A stretch of DNA of 12,333 nucleotides, from assembly GCA_017848155.1 (NCBI GenBank), contig JAGAKC010000387.1:1-12333 (forward strand). Reading direction: 5' to 3'. Position 1 is the stretch's first letter, and each line of letters begins with the position of its first letter. The notes under the pieces are model-generated. The model saw only the letters and a list, made by a program, of their open reading frames with translations. It did no database searches and was not told where the DNA came from. A program made the translations under genes and the position numbers. Below, piece by piece: positions 752 through 12,333 of the stretch. This DNA is from Oscillospiraceae bacterium (lineage in GTDB: Bacteria; Bacillota; Clostridia; Oscillospirales; Ruminococcaceae).

Positions 752-2680
752 ATGGGACTTACTTTAACCGAGAAGATCATCAAGGCGCATATCGTTGACG
801 GCGAGATGATCAAGGGTCAGGAGATCGGTCTTAAGATCGACCAGACCCTCACACAGGACGCTACAGGTACTATGGCATACCTCCAGTTTGAGGCTATGGG
901 CGTTGACCGCGTTAAGACAGAGCGTTCTGTTGCATACATCGATCACAATACCCTTCAGAGCGGCTTTGAGAATGCGGACGACCACCGCTTCATCGGCTCT
1001 ATCGCAAAGAAGCACGGTATCTGGTTCTCAAGACCCGGCAACGGTATCTGCCATCAGGTACATCTGGAGCGCTTCGGCAAGCCCGGAAAGACTCTTATCG
1101 GCTCTGACAGCCATACTCCCACAGGCGGCGGTATCGGTATGCTCGCCATCGGTGCGGGCGGTCTTGACGTTGCCGTTGCAATGGGCGGCGGCGCTTACTA
1201 CATAACTATGCCTAAGGTAGTAAAGATAAACCTTACAGGCAAGCTCAACGACTGGGTTTCCGCAAAGGACGTTATCCTTGAGGTACTGCGTATCCTGTCC
1301 GTAAAGGGCGGCGTAGGCAAGGTAATGGAGTACTGCGGCGACGGCGTTGCAAGCCTGTCCGTGCCCGAGCGTGCTACTATCACCAACATGGGCGCTGAGC
1401 TTGGCGCTACCACATCCATCTTCCCCTCTGATGAAACTACTCTCCGCTTCCTTAAGGCGCAGGGCAGAGAAGAGGATTATGTGGAGCTTTCCGCTGACCC
1501 CGACGCAGTTTATGACGAGGAAGTAAACATCGACCTTTCAAAGCTCGTTCCCCTTGCTGCATGTCCTCATTCTCCCGACAATATCAAGAGCATCGAGGAG
1601 ATCGGCGCTATCAAGGTAGATCAGGTGTGCATCGGCTCCTGTACAAACTCCTCTCTTCAGGACCTGCTCAAGGTAGCTCATATTCTGAAGGGCAAGACAG
1701 TTCACCCCGACGTGAGCCTTTCCATCGCTCCCGGCTCAAAGCAGGTGTTCAACATGCTCGCCGAGAACGGTGCGCTGTCCATCCTCATCGACGCAGGCGC
1801 AAGGATCCTGGAGAGCGCATGCGGTCCCTGCATCGGTATGGGTCAGTCCCCCAATTCGGGCGGTATCTCCCTCAGAACATTCAACCGTAACTTCCTCGGC
1901 AGAAGCGGCACAAAGGACGGTCAGATCTACCTTGTATCTCCCGAAACAGCTGCTATCTCCGCTATCACAGGCGTATTCACCGACCCCAGAACTATCGGTG
2001 AGATGCCTCCTTATATCATGCCCGAGAAGTTCCTTATCAACGACAACATGGTGGTTCCTCCCGCAAGCGTTGAGGATGCTCCTGCTGTTGAGATACTCCG
2101 TGGTCCGAACATCAAGCCTTTCCCTGTGAACAAGCCCCTTGCCGAGAGCATCGAGAGCGACGTTACACTTAAGGTGGGCGACAACATCACAACTGACCAC
2201 ATAATGCCTGCAGGTGCAAAGATTCTGCCTCTGCGCTCCAATATCCCTGCTATCTCCGAGTACTGCTTCACAGTCTGTGACGAGACCTTCCCCACAAGGG
2301 CAAAGGAAGCAGGCAAGTCCATTATCGTCGGCGGTACGAACTACGGTCAGGGCTCTTCCAGAGAGCACGCTGCGCTTGCACCTCTTTACCTCGGCGTAAA
2401 GGCTATCATCTGCAAGAGCTTTGCACGTATCCACAGACAGAATCTCATCAACAACGGCATCCTGCCCCTCGAGTTCGTGAACGAGGCTGACTATGACAGG
2501 ATCGATCAGGGCGACAGCCTTGTTATCGCAGACATCCGCTCTATCGTTGAGAACGGCGGCGCTATCGTTGTCGAGAACAAGACTAAGGGCGAAAAGTACG
2601 ACGTTAAGTGCGAGCTTTCCGAGCGTGGCAAGGGCATGATCCTTGCAGGCGGTCTGCTTAACTACACAAAGGGCAACTAA
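752..2680 (+). CDS. acn: Aconitate hydratase (short, Aquifex-like type)
   Basis: Isomerises citrate to isocitrate through cis-aconitate in the cytoplasm with a [4Fe-4S] cluster. The 642-residue protein has the aconitase order: a large N-terminal catalytic part, then a C-terminal swivel domain. Visible are SDSHT (118-122), GSCTN with ligand Cys297, ACGPC with ligands Cys357 and Cys360, and SSREH (535-539) in the swivel domain preceded by GTNYGQG. It is far shorter than the roughly 900-residue AcnA/CitB type and close to the Aquifex-type aconitases of about 640-660 residues. The start is ATG 752, with AAAGGAG (736-742) nine bases upstream. It is the first gene of a cluster with icd and rex and probably supplies 2-oxoglutarate for glutamate synthesis. 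The strongly biased codons suggest high expression. 3-Isopropylmalate dehydratase is less likely, because both domains are fused in one chain. Confidence 0.93.
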   Translation: MGLTLTEKIIKAHIVDGEMIKGQEIGLKIDQTLTQDATGTMAYLQFEAMGVDRVKTERSVAYIDHNTLQSGFENADDHRFIGSIAKKHGIWFSRPGNGICHQVHLERFGKPGKTLIGSDSHTPTGGGIGMLAIGAGGLDVAVAMGGGAYYITMPKVVKINLTGKLNDWVSAKDVILEVLRILSVKGGVGKVMEYCGDGVASLSVPERATITNMGAELGATTSIFPSDETTLRFLKAQGREEDYVELSADPDAVYDEEVNIDLSKLVPLAACPHSPDNIKSIEEIGAIKVDQVCIGSCTNSSLQDLLKVAHILKGKTVHPDVSLSIAPGSKQVFNMLAENGALSILIDAGARILESACGPCIGMGQSPNSGGISLRTFNRNFLGRSGTKDGQIYLVSPETAAISAITGVFTDPRTIGEMPPYIMPEKFLINDNMVVPPASVEDAPAVEILRGPNIKPFPVNKPLAESIESDVTLKVGDNITTDHIMPAGAKILPLRSNIPAISEYCFTVCDETFPTRAKEAGKSIIVGGTNYGQGSSREHAALAPLYLGVKAIICKSFARIHRQNLINNGILPLEFVNEADYDRIDQGDSLVIADIRSIVENGGAIVVENKTKGEKYDVKCELSERGKGMILAGGLLNYTKGN

Positions 2681-2690
2681 GCTGAAAAAA

Positions 2691-2710
2691 GGCGGCGACA
2701 GTCTGCCGCC
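2691..2710 (+). other. Intercistronic GC-rich hairpin between acn and icd
   Basis: GGCGGC (2691-2696) pairs with GCCGCC (2705-2710) across eight bases, eleven bases after the acn stop codon. No T run follows on the plus strand, so it is not a standard terminator. A partial attenuator or an mRNA-stabilising hairpin is more likely. Six A residues precede it, so on the minus strand it would read as a terminator. Confidence 0.5.
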
Positions 2711-2749
2711 GCTTACATATATCATATCAAACCGAAAGGAATTGCTGAA

Positions 2750-3964
2750 ATGGCTGAAAAGATACAGATGACCACCCCTCTCGTTGAGATGGACGGCGAC
2801 GAAATGACCAGAATTATCTGGAAGATGATAAAGGATATCCTTATCACTCCCTATGTTGATCTTAAGACAGAGTACTATGACCTCGGTCTTGTACACAGAA
2901 ACGAAACAGACGATCAGGTAACTATCGACTCCGCAAACGCTACAAAGAAGTACGGTGTTGCTGTAAAGTGTGCAACCATCACACCCAACGCACAGCGTAT
3001 GACAGAGTACGACCTGAAGGAGATGTGGAAGTCCCCCAACGGCACTATCCGTGCTATCCTTGATGGTACAGTATTCCGTGCTCCCATCATCTGCAAGGGT
3101 ATAAACTCCCTTATCCCCACATGGACAAAGCCTATCACCATCGCACGTCACGCATACGGTGACGTATACAAGAACAGCGAGATGAAGGTAGCAGACGGCA
3201 GCAAGTGCGAGCTTATCGTGACAGATAAGGACGGCAACGAAACACGTCAGCTCATCCATACATTCAAGGGCAGCGACGGTATCATCCAGGGTCTGCACAA
3301 CATAAACGGCTCCATTGCTTCCTTTGCAAGGGCATGCTTCAACTTTGCTCTTGACACAAAGCAGGATCTGTGGTTTGCTACAAAGGACACCATCTCCAAG
3401 CAGTACGATCATACCTTCAAGGATATCTTTGCAGATATCTATGAGGCTGAGTACAAGGCAAAGTTCGAGGCTGCCGGTATCGAGTACTTCTATACACTTA
3501 TCGACGATGCTGTTGCAAGAGTTGTACGCTCTGAGGGCGGCTACATCTGGGCATGCAAGAACTACGATGGCGACGTTATGTCCGACATGGTCGCAACCGC
3601 ATTCGGCTCGCTCGGTATGATGACATCTGTTCTGGTATCTCCTGACGGCGTGTACGAGTACGAAGCAGCTCACGGTACTGTTACACGTCACTACTACAAG
3701 CACCTCAAGGGCGAGGAGACCTCCACAAACTCCGTTGCTACCATTTTCGCATGGACAGGCGCTCTTAAGAAGAGGGGCGAGCTTGACAATATCCCCGCTC
3801 TTACAGAGTACGCAGAGAAGCTTGAAAAGGCTACAGTACAGACCATCGAGGAAGGCGTTATGACAGGCGACCTGTACGTGCTCTCCACCCTCGAGAACAA
3901 GCGCAAGGTAAACACAGAGGACTTCCTCATTGAGATCAACAAAAGACTTGCGGCTATGATGTGA
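2750..3964 (+). CDS. icd: NADP-dependent isocitrate dehydrogenase, eukaryote-like homodimeric type
   Basis: Oxidatively decarboxylates isocitrate to 2-oxoglutarate with NADP+ and a divalent metal, directly after aconitase in the pathway. The 404 residues resemble the eukaryotic/subfamily II enzymes rather than the E. coli Icd type. Visible signatures are the N-terminal [15 protein letters not shown], the isocitrate-binding [18 protein letters not shown], the Arg of ARHAYGD (counterpart of human IDH1 Arg132), and the cofactor motif [24 protein letters not shown]. The His and Arg in GTVTRHY fit preference for NADP over NAD. ATG 2750 has AAAGGA (2735-2740) nine bases upstream. It lies 69 bases after acn and 50 before rex, with no terminator between, so it is probably co-transcribed. 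No citrate synthase gene is in the window. Confidence 0.95.
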
Positions 3965-7286: not shown

Positions 7287-7321
7287 ATATCGGTAGCCGA
7301 AAGGCTATAATAACATTTTAT

Positions 7322-7436
7322 CTGTTTCGGGGCGGGGTGAGATTCCCCACCGGCGGTATAGTCCGCGAGCCTTTATGGTTGAATGGGTGAGATTCCCATA
7401 CCGACGGTATAGTCCGGATGAAAGGATCAGAACAAA
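7322..7436 (+). ncRNA. FMN riboswitch (RFN element) aptamer
   Basis: The conserved RFN blocks appear in order: TCGGGGC (7327-7333), GGGTGAGATTCCCCACCGGCGGT, AGTCCGCGAGC, then GGGTGAGATTCCCATACCGACGGT and TAGTCCGGATGAAAGGA-CAGAAC. Together they form the six-helix aptamer that binds flavin mononucleotide. The outer helix ends are approximate. The aptamer precedes ribU, and FMN binding is expected to favour the terminator at 7465-7516 and so shut off riboflavin uptake when flavin is plentiful. Confidence 0.96.
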
Positions 7437-7516: not shown

Positions 7517-7537
7517 CCCGAGGAATTGGAGGAAACG

Positions 7538-8215
7538 ATGAACAACACAACAACTACAACAGCAGGCAGACCGGCAAAACGTGTGGACGTGCGCAGACTG
7601 GTATTCACGGCGCTTCTCGGAGCGCTTTCCATTGTGCTTGCGAACTTCCTTAAGTTCAAGGTACCGATAATGCCCGGCTTTATCAGCTTTGATTTTTCCG
7701 ACATGCCTGCGATGCTTGCGTCGCTTACGATGGGGCCTGTATCGGGCGTGCTGGTGGCGCTGATAAAGAATCTGCAGGGACTAATGGTGACCGAAACGGG
7801 CGGCGTCGGTGAGCTTTCAAACTTCATCCTCAGTGCTTCACTGGTGCTTCCTGCGGGCATAGTTGCCATGAAAACAAAGAAGCTGTGGGCGATAATCGTC
7901 GGCTGCGTCGGCGGTGCAGTGCTTATGGGTCTTGTCAGCATAGCTTCAAATTACTTCATCATGTACCCTGCGTATGCGGCGGTGTTCATTCCAAAGCCTG
8001 AGCTTTCCATGAGCGACAAGCTGGATATCATCGTCGGTATGTACAAGGGACTTATCCCTGCTCTTGACGGCAGCATCAACGGACTTCTGGATGTGCTGGT
8101 GATGTTTAATATGCCGTTCACGATGGTAAAGGGACTTACTGCGGCGATCATTTCAGTGCCGCTTTACAAAAGACTGCGCCCTGTGTTCAACAGCTTCTAC
8201 AGAAACGAGGGCTAA
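7538..8215 (+). CDS. ribU: Riboflavin ECF transporter substrate-binding (S) component RibU
   Basis: An integral membrane S component that captures riboflavin and works with a shared ECF module (EcfT and two ATPases), not encoded here. The 225 residues have a short polar Thr/Asn-rich N-terminus, then about six hydrophobic segments. The RibU-like signature lies in VPIMPGFISFDFSDMPAM, followed by LTMGPVSGVLVALIKNLQG and GGVGELSNF. The upstream FMN riboswitch supports riboflavin as the substrate. ATG 7538 follows GGAGG (7528-7532); an in-frame TTG at 7526 overlaps this site and is not used. The DUF5662 gene starts 25 bases after its stop. Confidence 0.95.
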   Translation: MNNTTTTTAGRPAKRVDVRRLVFTALLGALSIVLANFLKFKVPIMPGFISFDFSDMPAMLASLTMGPVSGVLVALIKNLQGLMVTETGGVGELSNFILSASLVLPAGIVAMKTKKLWAIIVGCVGGAVLMGLVSIASNYFIMYPAYAAVFIPKPELSMSDKLDIIVGMYKGLIPALDGSINGLLDVLVMFNMPFTMVKGLTAAIISVPLYKRLRPVFNSFYRNEG

Positions 8216-8894: not shown

Positions 8895-8945
8895 ATGCAG
8901 ATATTGTCTGCATGTTTCTGTAGACAGTCATATGATCGCTGTCTA
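8895..8945 (+). other. Two hairpins in the chemoreceptor mRNA leader
   Basis: The first hairpin is ATGCAGA (8895-8901) with TCTGCAT (8907-8913). The second is TAGACAG (8921-8927) with CTGTCTA (8939-8945). Both have seven pairs. TGTCT in the first hairpin is also complementary to AGACA in the second, so the two folds could exchange. The second ends ten bases before the ribosome site. It matches no riboswitch class I recognise. Confidence 0.45.
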
Positions 8946-8966
8946 TGGAAGGATCGGAGGTTAATC

Positions 8967-10937
8967 ATGGCAAAGGCAAAGGGCAGTAAAGGCAGTTTGA
9001 TGGCAAGGCTTACAAGGCTTGCGGTAATTCCTACGGTGGTAGTTGGCATTGTCGTTGCGGCGCTTGCTATCACTGCAACAACAGTATCTTATAATACTGT
9101 ATATCAGGATGAGGCTATCTCGCTTGCGGAAGCATATGCCACCAGCACTCAGAATCTTCTGGAGAACCTGTCACAGCAGTTTGATGTTGTGATCGAGAAT
9201 CCTGATATAGTTAACGAAAACATATCGATGGAAGAGCGCAGGGCTATTCTTGACAATCGTGCTTCAACAAGTACGTTCAAGGACTTTTCCGTTGCGTATG
9301 CGGACGGTAAGACATACAACGATACCGATATATCCCAGCGTGACTATTTCAAGCAGGCTATGGCGAACAAGGGTGCGTATGTGTCAAGTCCTGTACTTAG
9401 AATGACCGACAACAGCCTTACTATAATGATGGGTAAGTATTTTAATGCAAACGGTCAGGACTACCTTGTATACGGCGGTCTTGCAACAGACACAGTAAAC
9501 CAGATAATCGAAAAGGTACATTTCGGCGAGAACGGCGTGAGCTTCATTATCGACAAGGACGGTCAGATAATAGCCACCAGCAACGAGGAGATGTTCCCCA
9601 TCCTTACAAATCTCAAGGACAAGGAGAACCTTTCCGCGGGACTTAAAGAGCTGTCTGCCGTGTCTGACAGCATGCTTACATATGAGGAAGGAACCTGCCA
9701 GAAAACAGTAAATGGTCAGCAGTACTATATCGGCTATGCTCCTGTTGCGGGCGCTGAGGGCTGGTCCATCGCAGTGGCTACTCCCTGGTCGCCAGTTGTG
9801 TGGAAGATAAATACGTCCGCTCTTCAGATACTTGCTCTGGCTACAGTTGCGGTGATCCTGGTAATAATCGTTCTGAGATTCCCCATCAAGAGGATCGCAG
9901 CACCCATAGCAAAGACTGCTAAGCGTCTTGTGGAATTTGCTGACGGCGATATCTCCAGTCCTGCTCCCACGACTGATTTCGGCGGTGAGATACAGGATAT
10001 GACCGAGGCGCTCGATTCCATGATAAAGACCATCAGTGGCTGTATCGGCGATATCAGGAACGTGCTTACGTCCATGGCTGACGGCGATCTTACGGCAAGA
10101 CCCTCCGTTGAATACAAGGGTGAGTTCAGCGAGATAAGCATATCCCTTGAGAATATCGGCGATTCGCTGAATCAGGTAATGTCCGAGGTAGGACGCTCTG
10201 CCACAGAGGTGCGCGACGGCGCAAGCCAGCTCGCAGAAGGCTCTTCACAGCTCTCTCAGAATGCTGTTACACAGGCGGCTGCTGTTGATGAGATCACATC
10301 TACAGTACTTGATATCGCAAAGAAAACAGAGGCAAACAACGAGAACGTAAAGCGTGCGCTTGAAACTGTCCAGACAGCTAATCAGCAGGCTCAGGAAGGA
10401 TCCCGCAGCATGGGCGAGATGCTTGAGGCTATTCACGAGATCGAAAGCTCCTCCAAGGAGATCGAGCAGATCATGAAGGTCATCGACGACATTGCATTCC
10501 AGACGAATATTCTGGCGCTGAACGCTGCGATCGAGGCTGCAAGAGCAGGCGAGGCAGGCAAGGGCTTCGCAGTGGTTGCAGACGAGGTAAGAAACCTTGC
10601 AGGCAAGAGCGGCGATGCCGCAAAGCAGACAGGCGAGCTGATAAACCGCTCCATCGAGGCTGTGAACCGTGGTGCAGAGCTTGCTGACACCACATCCGCT
10701 GCGCTTACTGATATCGTAAACGGTGTCGAGGACATCGCAGGTGTAATGGCAGGCATCGCAGACGCAAACGATGAGCAGGCTGCTGCTGTGGAGCAGATAT
10801 CCTCCGGCATGGAGAATGTCAATATGGCTATCCACAACACCAGCGCTACCGCAGAGGAGAGCGCCGCAGCAAGCGAGGAGCTGTCCGCACTGGCTGTCAG
10901 CCTTACAGATGTCGTAGGACGCTTCACCACCGTGTAA
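8967..10937 (+). CDS. Methyl-accepting chemotaxis protein with a dCache-type sensor
   Basis: A 656-residue transmembrane receptor that passes ligand signals to CheW/CheA. Domains in order: basic cytoplasmic tail (1-16); TM1 (about 17-40); an extracytoplasmic double-Cache sensor (about 41-280) with the [19 protein letters not shown] pattern and a second lobe [14 protein letters not shown]2 (about 286-307); a HAMP region (about 308-360); then a long helical signalling domain with the hairpin tip [20 protein letters not shown] starting near residue 510 and [16 protein letters not shown]. Gln/Glu-rich helices provide likely methylation sites. There is no C-terminal NWETF-like CheR/CheB tether; it ends [12 protein letters not shown] 8967 follows GGAGG (8956-8960); an in-frame ATG at 8895 lies in a leader hairpin and is rejected. 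It has its own promoter and terminator and no chemotaxis neighbours, so the ligand is unknown. Confidence 0.95.
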
Positions 10938-11006: not shown

Positions 11007-11036
11007 TTGACTTTATGGGTGGTTATGTGATATAAT
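11007..11036 (+). promoter_or_regulatory. Promoter reading into the 125-bp repeats
   Basis: TTGACT (11007-11012), 18 bases, TATAAT (11031-11036). The transcript should start near 11043, right at the border of the repeat array, and run through both repeat units into the lipoprotein gene at 11371. A shorter non-coding RNA from the same promoter is equally possible. Confidence 0.8.
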
Positions 11037-11087
11037 AAACTTGGCTTTTTCAAAAGCTGCGCTTTTGCGCCAAGTTTATTGAACGGC

Positions 11088-11149
11088 GGGGAGGTCTGCT
11101 TCGCAGACGGCTGCTGTTGCAGCCATCAAACGCTTTGCGTTTGCTCTCC
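11088..11149 (+). other. Predicted four-way-junction (cloverleaf) structure, copy 1
   Basis: Closing stem GGGGAG (11088-11093) with CTCTCC (11144-11149), one wobble. Inside it are three hairpins: GTCTGC-TTC-GCAGAC (11094-11108), GGCTGC-TGTT-GCAGCC (11109-11124) and CAAACGC-TTT-GCGTTTG (11127-11143). Only two bases (11125-11126) are unpaired at the junction. The pairing is exact, but whether it acts as RNA or as a DNA cruciform is unknown. It is not a tRNA: loops of three or four bases and no acceptor features. Confidence 0.7.
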
Positions 11150-11212
11150 TGGTTTAGATAAACTGTTGGCTATATCAAAAGCTGTGCTTTTGCGCCAAGT
11201 TTATTGAACGGC

Positions 11213-11274
11213 GGGGAGGTCTGCTTCGCAGACGGCTGCTGTTGCAGCCATCAAACGCTTTGCGTTTGCTCTCC
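11213..11274 (+). other. Predicted four-way-junction (cloverleaf) structure, copy 2
   Basis: Identical in sequence to copy 1: closing stem 11213-11218 with 11269-11274, hairpins at 11219-11233, 11234-11249 and 11252-11268. Confidence 0.7.
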
Positions 11275-11370
11275 TGGTTTAGATATACTGTTGGCTATAT
11301 CAAAAGCTGCGCTTTTGCTTATAATGGATGATGAAATAATTCACAACTTAACAGAAATGGAGAAATGCAT

Positions 11371-12168
11371 ATGAAAAAGTTTTTCAAAACTATTGCAGCT
11401 ATCGCACTGACAGCAGTAATGTGCGCAGGATGCAGCAGCACTGTAAAGCCTAACGAGGTGTTTTCCGCTGCTGACCTTGAGGGCAAGGTCATCGGTGTAC
11501 AGCAGGGCACTACCGGTGATACGTTCGTAAGCAGCGAGGAGAACGGCGTAAAAGCAAAGGAAGTGTCCAAGTTTAAAAAGGGCACAGAGGCTATCACTGC
11601 TCTTAAGCAGGGCAAGGTGGATGCAGTCGTTATCGATAACGAGCCTGCGCTTGAGTTCGTTGCGGACAATGACGATCTTATGATACTTGATGAGAAGCTG
11701 GCTGTTGAGGAGTACGCTATCGCAGTAAACAAGGACAGACCTGAGCTTACAGCTGCCATCAACACTGCACTGGATGAGCTTGAGGCTGATGGTACTCTCG
11801 GTGAGCTTAAGGCTTTCTGGATAGAGGAAACAGGCGGAAAGGGCTACGTTTCCCCCGAGGGCATCGCATATCCCAACGGCACACTGACAATGGCTACAAA
11901 CGCTACATTCCCTCCCTATGAGTTTAAGAGAGAGGGCGAGATCGTAGGCTTCGACGTTGATATGATGCGTGCTGTGTGCGACAAGCTTGGATATGAGCTT
12001 AAGATCAGCGACATGGACTTCAATTCCATCATTGCTGCCGTAAAGTCTGGCAAGGCTGATGTGGGTGTTGCAGGTATCAGTGTGACTGAGGACCGCAAGG
12101 CAAACATAGACTTTACAAGATCCTACTTTGATTCTGCCGCACAGGTGATCATCGTAAGAAAGAAGTAA
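11371..12168 (+). CDS. Circularly permuted amino-acid ABC transporter substrate-binding lipoprotein
   Basis: A 265-residue lipoprotein with the extracellular solute-binding protein family 3 fold, expected to bind an amino acid at the outer membrane face. A signal peptide ends in MCAGC; Cys21 is the likely lipidated residue, although Cys at -3 of the lipobox is unusual. The family's two halves are in reverse order. Residues 35 to about 150 are the normally C-terminal half (DLEGKVIGVQQGTTGD, DAVVIDNEPALEF, EEYAIAVNK, ELEADGTLGELKAFW). A 20-residue linker (151-170) follows, and then the normally N-terminal half (171-265; LTMATNATFPPYEF, GEIVGFDVDMMRAV, VGVAGISVTEDRKANIDF, QVIIVRKK). Ligand residues appear kept: Asp89 (amino group) and Arg242 (carboxylate). 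ATG 11371 has GGAG (11359-11362) eight bases upstream; ATG 11365 is too close. No permease or ATPase adjoins it, and a terminator follows directly. Confidence 0.9.
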   Translation: MKKFFKTIAAIALTAVMCAGCSSTVKPNEVFSAADLEGKVIGVQQGTTGDTFVSSEENGVKAKEVSKFKKGTEAITALKQGKVDAVVIDNEPALEFVADNDDLMILDEKLAVEEYAIAVNKDRPELTAAINTALDELEADGTLGELKAFWIEETGGKGYVSPEGIAYPNGTLTMATNATFPPYEFKREGEIVGFDVDMMRAVCDKLGYELKISDMDFNSIIAAVKSGKADVGVAGISVTEDRKANIDFTRSYFDSAAQVIIVRKK

Positions 12169-12173
12169 TATCC

Positions 12174-12214
12174 GACCGTGCCGTGCGTCATAACAGCTTC
12201 GGCACGGTCTTGTT
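12174..12214 (+). terminator. Intrinsic terminator after the substrate-binding protein gene
   Basis: GACCGTGCCG (12174-12183) pairs perfectly with CGGCACGGTC (12200-12209), followed by TTGTT. It starts five bases after the stop codon, so the gene ends its transcript here. Confidence 0.88.
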
Positions 12215-12237: not shown

Positions 12238-12333
12238 GTGATTACATACAATGCCGTGTTTGCGCTGCTGTCAGAGGCTTCGGCTACTGCACAGACTGAG
12301 GAGATAGGCGCTGTTGCAGGCTTTTTCAAGGGG
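12238..12333 (+). CDS. Possible start of an unidentified gene, cut by the window edge
   Basis: The only frame that stays open to the right edge in this segment runs from a stop at 12220. The first plausible start is GTG 12238, giving VITYNAVFALLSEASATAQT-like sequence that continues past the window. AGGGGG (12221-12226) lies 11 bases upstream, which is long. Codon choice (GCT, GAG, AAG, GGC) matches the neighbours. I do not recognise the fragment. A competing signal, AAGGTGAT (12235-12242) eight bases before ATG 12251, would open an 18-codon frame that ends at TAG within the window. Confidence 0.35.
   Translation, partial: MITYNAVFALLSEASATAQTEEIGAVAGFFKG

Follow-up and report, generated by a model that had tools for sequence, protein, structure and literature searches.

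The window analysed here, meaning the whole stretch of 12,333 nucleotides on contig JAGAKC010000387.1 of an Oscillospiraceae bacterium, carries near its right end an open reading frame (ORF) for a 265-residue lipoprotein, present at 11371–12168 as the original prediction had placed it. The product is a solute-binding protein (SBP) of family 3 (PF00497) in which the two halves of the chain stand in circularly permuted order. The features of the gene and of its immediate surroundings are collected in Table 1. In the following, L1 denotes the canonical first half of the family (most of lobe 1, up to hinge strand 1) and L2 the canonical second half (lobe 2, hinge 2, and the C-terminal helices of lobe 1), while other loci and proteins are cited by L numbers of three digits and P numbers of four digits. 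The ATG at 11371 is preferred as start codon, given the GGAG at 11359–11362, 8 bases ahead of it.

Table 1. Features of the permuted binding-protein gene and its surroundings in the window
Feature	Position	Strand	Basis
Circularly permuted family-3 solute-binding lipoprotein gene, 265 residues	11371..12168	+	ORF list, Pfam, phmmer
Signal peptide to the presumed lipidated C21	11371..11433	+	Sequence; C21 invariant in 50 aligned sequences
L2 half, residues 30–151	11458..11823	+	Matches AncQR 109–231; residues 26–112 match TmArgBP domain 2 (6gpm)
Linker, residues 152–168 (canonical C- to N-terminus)	11824..11874	+	Gap between the phmmer pieces; model confidence (pLDDT) of block 151–160 = 85
L1 half, residues 169–265, ending with the hinge strand	11875..12165	+	Matches AncQR 9–104; residues 167–259 match TmArgBP domain 1 (6gpc); strand 253–263
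Hairpin between the gene and the next frame, ends approximate	12173..12211	+	z −2.08; 8 of 200 shuffles fold as well
Probable permease gene start (GTG)	12238..12333	+	Position as the permease of relatives; cut by the contig end at 12333
Promoter-like site (11 of 12 matched, second hexamer preceded by TG)	11007..11036	+	2 sites in the region versus 1.4 expected in shuffles

Pfam SBP_bac_3 (PF00497) matches the protein with 127.9 bits (cut-off, 26.4) in two stretches, the best of which aligns residues 172–264 with profile positions 1–92. In the phmmer comparison with AncQR (4zv1), residues 169–264 correspond to 9–104 (91.8 bits) and residues 30–151 to 109–231 (69.0 bits). Both pieces are highly significant and stand in reversed sequence, and comparisons with 6svf and 4prs give the same swapped picture. 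The profile and phmmer pieces rule out a fit to the family in normal order; they are the two partial, swapped matches that the original prediction, which had claimed reversed halves, foresaw for a profile search. With the tandem domains of GlnPQ (6h30), the best stretch pairs residues 23–256 with 95–323 of the chain, as would be expected for a permuted unit straddling the border of two domains. The reversed order can be taken as real and far from chance. The product of 11371–12168 is confirmed as a circularly permuted PF00497 protein of order L2-L1: the profile places it in the family, its halves do not follow the canonical order, and, the order being reversed, it is therefore a permuted variant rather than a standard member.

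At the break, four AncQR residues (105–108) are absent, and about 17 residues (152–168) bridge the former ends, fewer than the 20 first given for the linker. The break had also been placed inside the hinge; hinge strand 1 is intact as residues 253–263, and the chain is cut in the short loop that follows. Residues Q44, T47, D89, F180, F217, G235, and R242, which we assume to have ligand-binding roles, are invariant in the 50 aligned sequences. Presumably, Asp89 contacts the amino group of the ligand and Arg242 its carboxylate, by comparison with the glutamine-binding protein; the presence of both residues had been claimed from the outset, and they give the window protein the conserved ligand-site Asp and Arg of the family. 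TIGR01096 (Lys/Arg/Orn binding; 149 bits versus a cut-off of 256.35) and PRK09495 (Gln binding; 130.1 versus 303) score below their cut-offs, which says little on the ligand because the permutation itself lowers these scores. The putative ligand class can be given no more finely than "polar amino acid". The Pfam matches of the protein are PF00497, PF10613, PF09084, and PF12974, none of which we take to be a Type I sugar-binding family, and PF04069 (OpuAC-type betaine binding) is not among them at an E-value of 0.001.

The AlphaFold2 model of the window protein is confident (predicted local distance difference test, pLDDT, 89.5; predicted TM-score, pTM, 0.81) and retains hinge strand 1. Each half of the model matches its own TmArgBP domain in swapped order (6gpm, then 6gpc). 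Foldseek on the permuted model returns matches of mixed families. Absence of a family from the VIA lists of structural matches does not exclude it. Taken over its full length, the model is matched best by OpuAC, a likeness of fold order only. Ordinary domain closing would be expected, because the chain keeps the hinge strand, and altered closing dynamics are less likely than had been suggested.

The same order is found in many relatives. Half profiles built from 81 two-lobed homologues give, among the 120 listed of 6851 homologues, L2-L1 in 82, L2-L1-L2 in 28, and L1-L2-L1 in 10. Of the named genome loci returned, 48 of 78 (L052–L099) begin with L2-L1, L067 being L2-L1-L2-L1 and L097 truncated; the remaining 30 hold weaker matches, canonical or L1 only. 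Within L052–L098, two records bear strain titles (Ruminococcus albus AR67 and KH2T6) and the rest are titled as metagenome-assembled genomes; L099 is a Coriobacteriia record, the one permuted record outside the phylum among the loci returned. L2-L1 is also carried by 26 of 99 other relatives (L002–L027), including 19 of the 42 genomes of the same genus. A class-wide search of 291 genomes of Clostridia gave, among the 29 loci read besides the window's own, at least 15 genomes with a close copy (L160–L174) and at least two with a distant one (L183 and L185); these counts are lower bounds, taken from 30 loci returned and 40 further stretches fetched. The median ratio of nonsynonymous to synonymous substitution (dN/dS) is 0.18 (174 pairs, not independent, from 47 sequences), and the L2-L1 type is under purifying selection among relatives. 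L2-L1 is thus an intact, widespread, and recurrent gene type and not an error, and the gene that had been viewed as a single oddity proves, on the homologue search proposed with it, to have many relatives of the same order.

A permease gene lies beside or is fused to the permuted gene in 40 of 47 loci (L052–L098), 19 of 20 (L032–L051), and 12 of 12 in a third set, and an ATPase gene follows it in 40 of 47, 18 of 20, and 11 of 12, respectively; the first two sets share at least four records, and their counts are not additive. In L036, L040, and L049, permuted domain and permease form one fused protein, and in L039 two permuted domains are joined to the permease; Pfam finds PF00497 together with PF00528 in all three fusions tested (L036, L039, and L049). 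This adjacency and fusion are the best evidence that the permuted form would serve a transporter. We consider, with a probability of roughly 90%, that the window protein would be a working receptor of a polar-amino-acid (PAAT) ATP-binding cassette (ABC) importer, with its permutation break in the loop that follows hinge strand 1.

Several observations weigh against the protein as a working receptor. The whole-chain structural comparisons use aligners that follow chain order, and the test of a single two-lobed site is an indirect one. No permease lies within 2 kb in 7 of the 47 loci L052–L098, one of which is cut by a contig end, nor in one of L032–L051. The window's contig ends 165 bases past the gene, placing its own permease beyond view, and BLASTP of the 32-residue window tail against the ORFs of L032–L129 gave no permease match; the frame from GTG 12238, of which 96 bases are present, probably starts the cognate permease gene, judging from its placement. 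The window copy itself sits on a long end branch (0.63 versus a median of 0.23) and differs, for example by M236I and D218N, at 10 positions where conservation across the other 49 rows reaches 90% or more. It appears to be fast-evolving, and its specificity may have shifted. The permuted genes with no permease found within 2 kb include those of L045, L082, L087, L088, L092, L094, and L095; such genes are possible orphan receptors or sensors.

An L2-then-L1 order also arises at the junction of two sites, as the match to SBD1-SBD2 of GlnPQ illustrates, and tandem L2-L1-L2-L1-permease forms occur (L039 and L028). The window chain might accordingly be read as one member of a lobe-swapped dimer or oligomer, in which L2 would pair with L1 of another chain and the linker would join two sites. 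We regard this arrangement as improbable, since the single-chain model is confident throughout, 82 of the 120 homologues listed contain a single L2 and a single L1, the 17-residue linker connects termini that both lie in lobe 1, and the precedent MglB-2 is monomeric according to the available part of its report (PMC4990184). Conversion of the protein into a sensor, for example for chemotaxis via a neighbouring methyl-accepting chemotaxis protein (MCP), seems slightly less probable still. A dCache MCP gene lies directly upstream in the window, MCP-like frames are placed likewise in L032/L052 and L034, and MglB-2 has been proposed for both uptake and chemotaxis in the available part of PMC4990184. 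Against this, permease and ATPase genes follow in most relatives and the permease is fused in several, the MCP-like frame of L033 stands apart on the other strand, and MCP adjacency is noted from individual loci. It is very improbable that the gene is a functionless copy in decay, as had been argued from the start, or that misassembly joined two genes: the source assembly is fragmented (498 contigs, 76.9% complete) and the window copy evolves fast, but the lipobox cysteine and the invariant residues are intact in it, and for the gene type artefact or decay is ruled out by its occurrence in dozens of separate assemblies and two isolates and by a dN/dS far below 1.

A second permuted order was found, L2c-L1-L2n, where L2c is the C-terminal piece of L2 and L2n its first part, the cut lying before hinge 2. 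It was first seen as matches starting mid-query or mid-model. In L175, residues 33–86 correspond to AncQR 178–231 and residues 105–271 to 12–178, giving a clean cut at residue 178. By the half profiles, the order is present in 27 of 28 fetched loci (L189–L216; L207 has only L1-L2n), at least 27 of the 291 class genomes, and a permease lies downstream in 26 of the 27; L175–L182 and L188 also carry it. Genes of this second order lie beside permease and ATPase genes. Among the 120 listed of 7994 homologues in a second search, 118 share the order, and the remaining pair consists of fused proteins. The model of L175 (pLDDT 87.4, pTM 0.80; residues 1–32 below 50) matches canonical ArtJ at 1.9 Å over 167 residues of 103–273, which comprise L1 and the first part of L2, and the moved N-terminal piece lies outside most such matches.

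Multi-lobed proteins are exemplified by P0002, P0005, P0009, and P0041 (L2-L1-L2), by P0003 (L1-L2-L1), and by the fusions of the second type P0121 (L2c-L1-L2-L1), which fuses both permuted orders, and P0133 (L2c-L1-L2). They look like hybrids of permuted and canonical genes, in which the lobe in excess could be in competition for the one partner available. Lobe trees of 12 of the 28 L2-L1-L2 and 7 of the 10 L1-L2-L1 proteins (119 and 95 columns, weak support) place the first L2 copies among or next to permuted proteins in 12 of 12 cases and the second copies on the canonical side in 11 of 12; the exception, P0008, may be a fragment of a 733-residue tandem type, and the placement of L1 is mixed. 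This weakly supported placement points to hybrids and speaks against the three-lobed proteins as preserved intermediates. None of the 38 three-lobed proteins has the source label ncbi or nr, the longest contig carrying one measures 20,468 bases, and reading 30 loci of a 299-genome search revealed no recognisable L2-L1-L2 gene; for these reasons, three-lobed genes could be assembly chimeras. Separately, the frame of L185 (615 residues, 1489–3336) holds a permuted family-3 pair (residues 385–612) at the end of a longer lipoprotein, the first part of which resembles, by eye, a sugar-type binding domain.

The history of the two orders was followed in a careful tree of 75 proteins with the halves rearranged into canonical order. 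This tree and the approximately unbiased (AU) tests omit eight long-branch rows of 83 (L183, L114, L110, L100, L188, L144, L153, and L140), of which L183 and L188 are permuted; a quick tree with all 83 rows puts the number of changes at 7 for the window's type and at 3 for the second. In the careful tree, the window's type needs 5 changes (4–6 in bootstraps) and is recovered as a single clade in 0% of the 200 bootstraps; the second type requires 2. For groups named after the first tree was seen, the AU test rejects one clade of all window-type proteins (p-AU 3e-5) and the joining of their two largest clades (p 0.0125), and weakly rejects one clade for the second type (p 0.032); a grouping of the main clade with L166 and L167 is not rejected (p 0.42). 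In one case, a permuted and a canonical row pair at high support (L145 with L155, 100/96). Since a single clade of the window's type is rejected, the half order changed repeatedly, gains and losses being indistinguishable. Recombination of halves, as the lobe trees hint, would disturb the joint tree. The tandem and three-lobed forms suggest that permuted genes may have arisen, recurrently in Clostridia, by tandem duplication followed by trimming, the route first proposed, or through recombination of neighbouring SBP genes.

As a working receptor, the mature chain would leave the lipid anchor and first build lobe 2, then pass through hinge 2 to the C-terminal lobe-1 helices; the 17-residue linker would join the former C- and N-ends, the rest of lobe 1 would follow, and the chain would end with hinge strand 1. 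A polar amino acid would be bound between the lobes, with Asp89 on its amino group and Arg242 on its carboxylate, and would be handed to the neighbouring permease. In the permease fusions, the end of hinge strand 1 would give the receptor a further tether, to the permease itself. In both permuted types, the end with the lipid anchor appears to have shifted from lobe 1 to lobe 2. Given two breakpoints and the TmArgBP domain matches only, it is a speculative and rather doubtful extension that Clostridia repeatedly permute at two loops because an anchor on the small lobe 2, adapting receptor presentation to the permease in the way suggested for MglB-2, is selected. Tethering alone does not require permutation, because canonical Clostridial receptors are often lipoproteins too.

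Other features of the surroundings are as follows. A terminator pattern scan called neither the hairpin at 12173–12211 nor any terminator after the gene. The hairpin recalls the internal terminators of ABC operons of cellulolytic Clostridia reported in the available part of PMC9045158. Between the promoter-like site and the gene, a 125-base tandem repeat (11041–11318; 2.2 copies, 96% match) folds much more stably than its shuffled versions (z −7.4). In 8 of 42 other genomes of the genus it has counterparts that are diverged or partial, some in tandem, and it looks like a mobile or repetitive extragenic palindromic (REP)-like element. The dCache MCP gene directly upstream occupies 8895–10937, and the corresponding frames of L032/L052 and L034 (658–702 residues) are MCP-like by look. 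Further upstream, a flavin mononucleotide (FMN) riboswitch (Rfam RF00050, 112.3 bits) at 7319–7433 precedes a 229-residue ORF (7526–8215), membrane-protein-like and probably a putative riboflavin S component of the energy-coupling factor (ECF) type.

Canonical family-3 SBPs (PF00497, cluster F/Type II; GlnH, ArtJ, TmArgBP, and AncQR) have the same halves, conserved residues, and lipobox as the window protein and the same permease and ATPase neighbours as its relatives, whereas the order of the halves and the positions of the termini differ and the new linker belongs to the window protein. Proteins of the GlnPQ type (6h30) likewise hold several binding domains in one permease-fused chain; those domains are in canonical order, whereas the fusions among the present relatives contain permuted ones. 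Permuted binding proteins are already known as a kind of event. As described in the available part of its report, TpMglB-2 (Tp0684) is a circularly permuted Type I glucose-binding lipoprotein that binds ligand and changes conformation in vitro; it has relatives in Gram-positive gut bacteria, the class "Type Ic / Cluster Bc" was proposed for the group, and tethering was suggested by the authors as a possible reason for the permutation (PMC4990184). TpMglB-2 shares with the window protein the natural circular permutation of an ABC-system binding lipoprotein and differs in its Type I fold, sugar ligand, and break; the window protein has the permutation of that class but not its Type I sugar-binding family.

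A paper of 2008, as far as its available part extends, describes circular-permutation relations among glycine-betaine-binding proteins (2B4L, 1R9L, and 1SW1), molybdate-binding proteins, and CysB (PMC2395249). OpuAC versus ProX/AfProX and the molybdate-binding proteins are, in that account, likewise permutation-related; OpuAC/ProX belong to another family with another ligand and the relations lie below 24% identity, whereas here permuted and canonical forms coexist in one family, the best canonical rows standing at about 45–53% per half to the window protein. A literature search judged on titles and abstract openings, with subscription journals mostly outside its scope, found no account of permutation in family 3, of two breakpoints in one family, or of permease-fused permuted domains, and the available part of PMC2861598 does not mention permutation or swapping.

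The known SBP permutations separate distant families or occur inside one subclass of sugar binders. In the present case, a single bacterial class holds one transporter receptor in canonical, permuted, and differently permuted versions, with halves that are still clearly alike, beside tandem and three-lobed forms. Curated ligand models assume the canonical order and therefore give two weak partial matches instead of one protein. Since the versions coexist and are alike per half, it can be tested directly through which steps a permutation proceeds, what it costs, and what it might bring.
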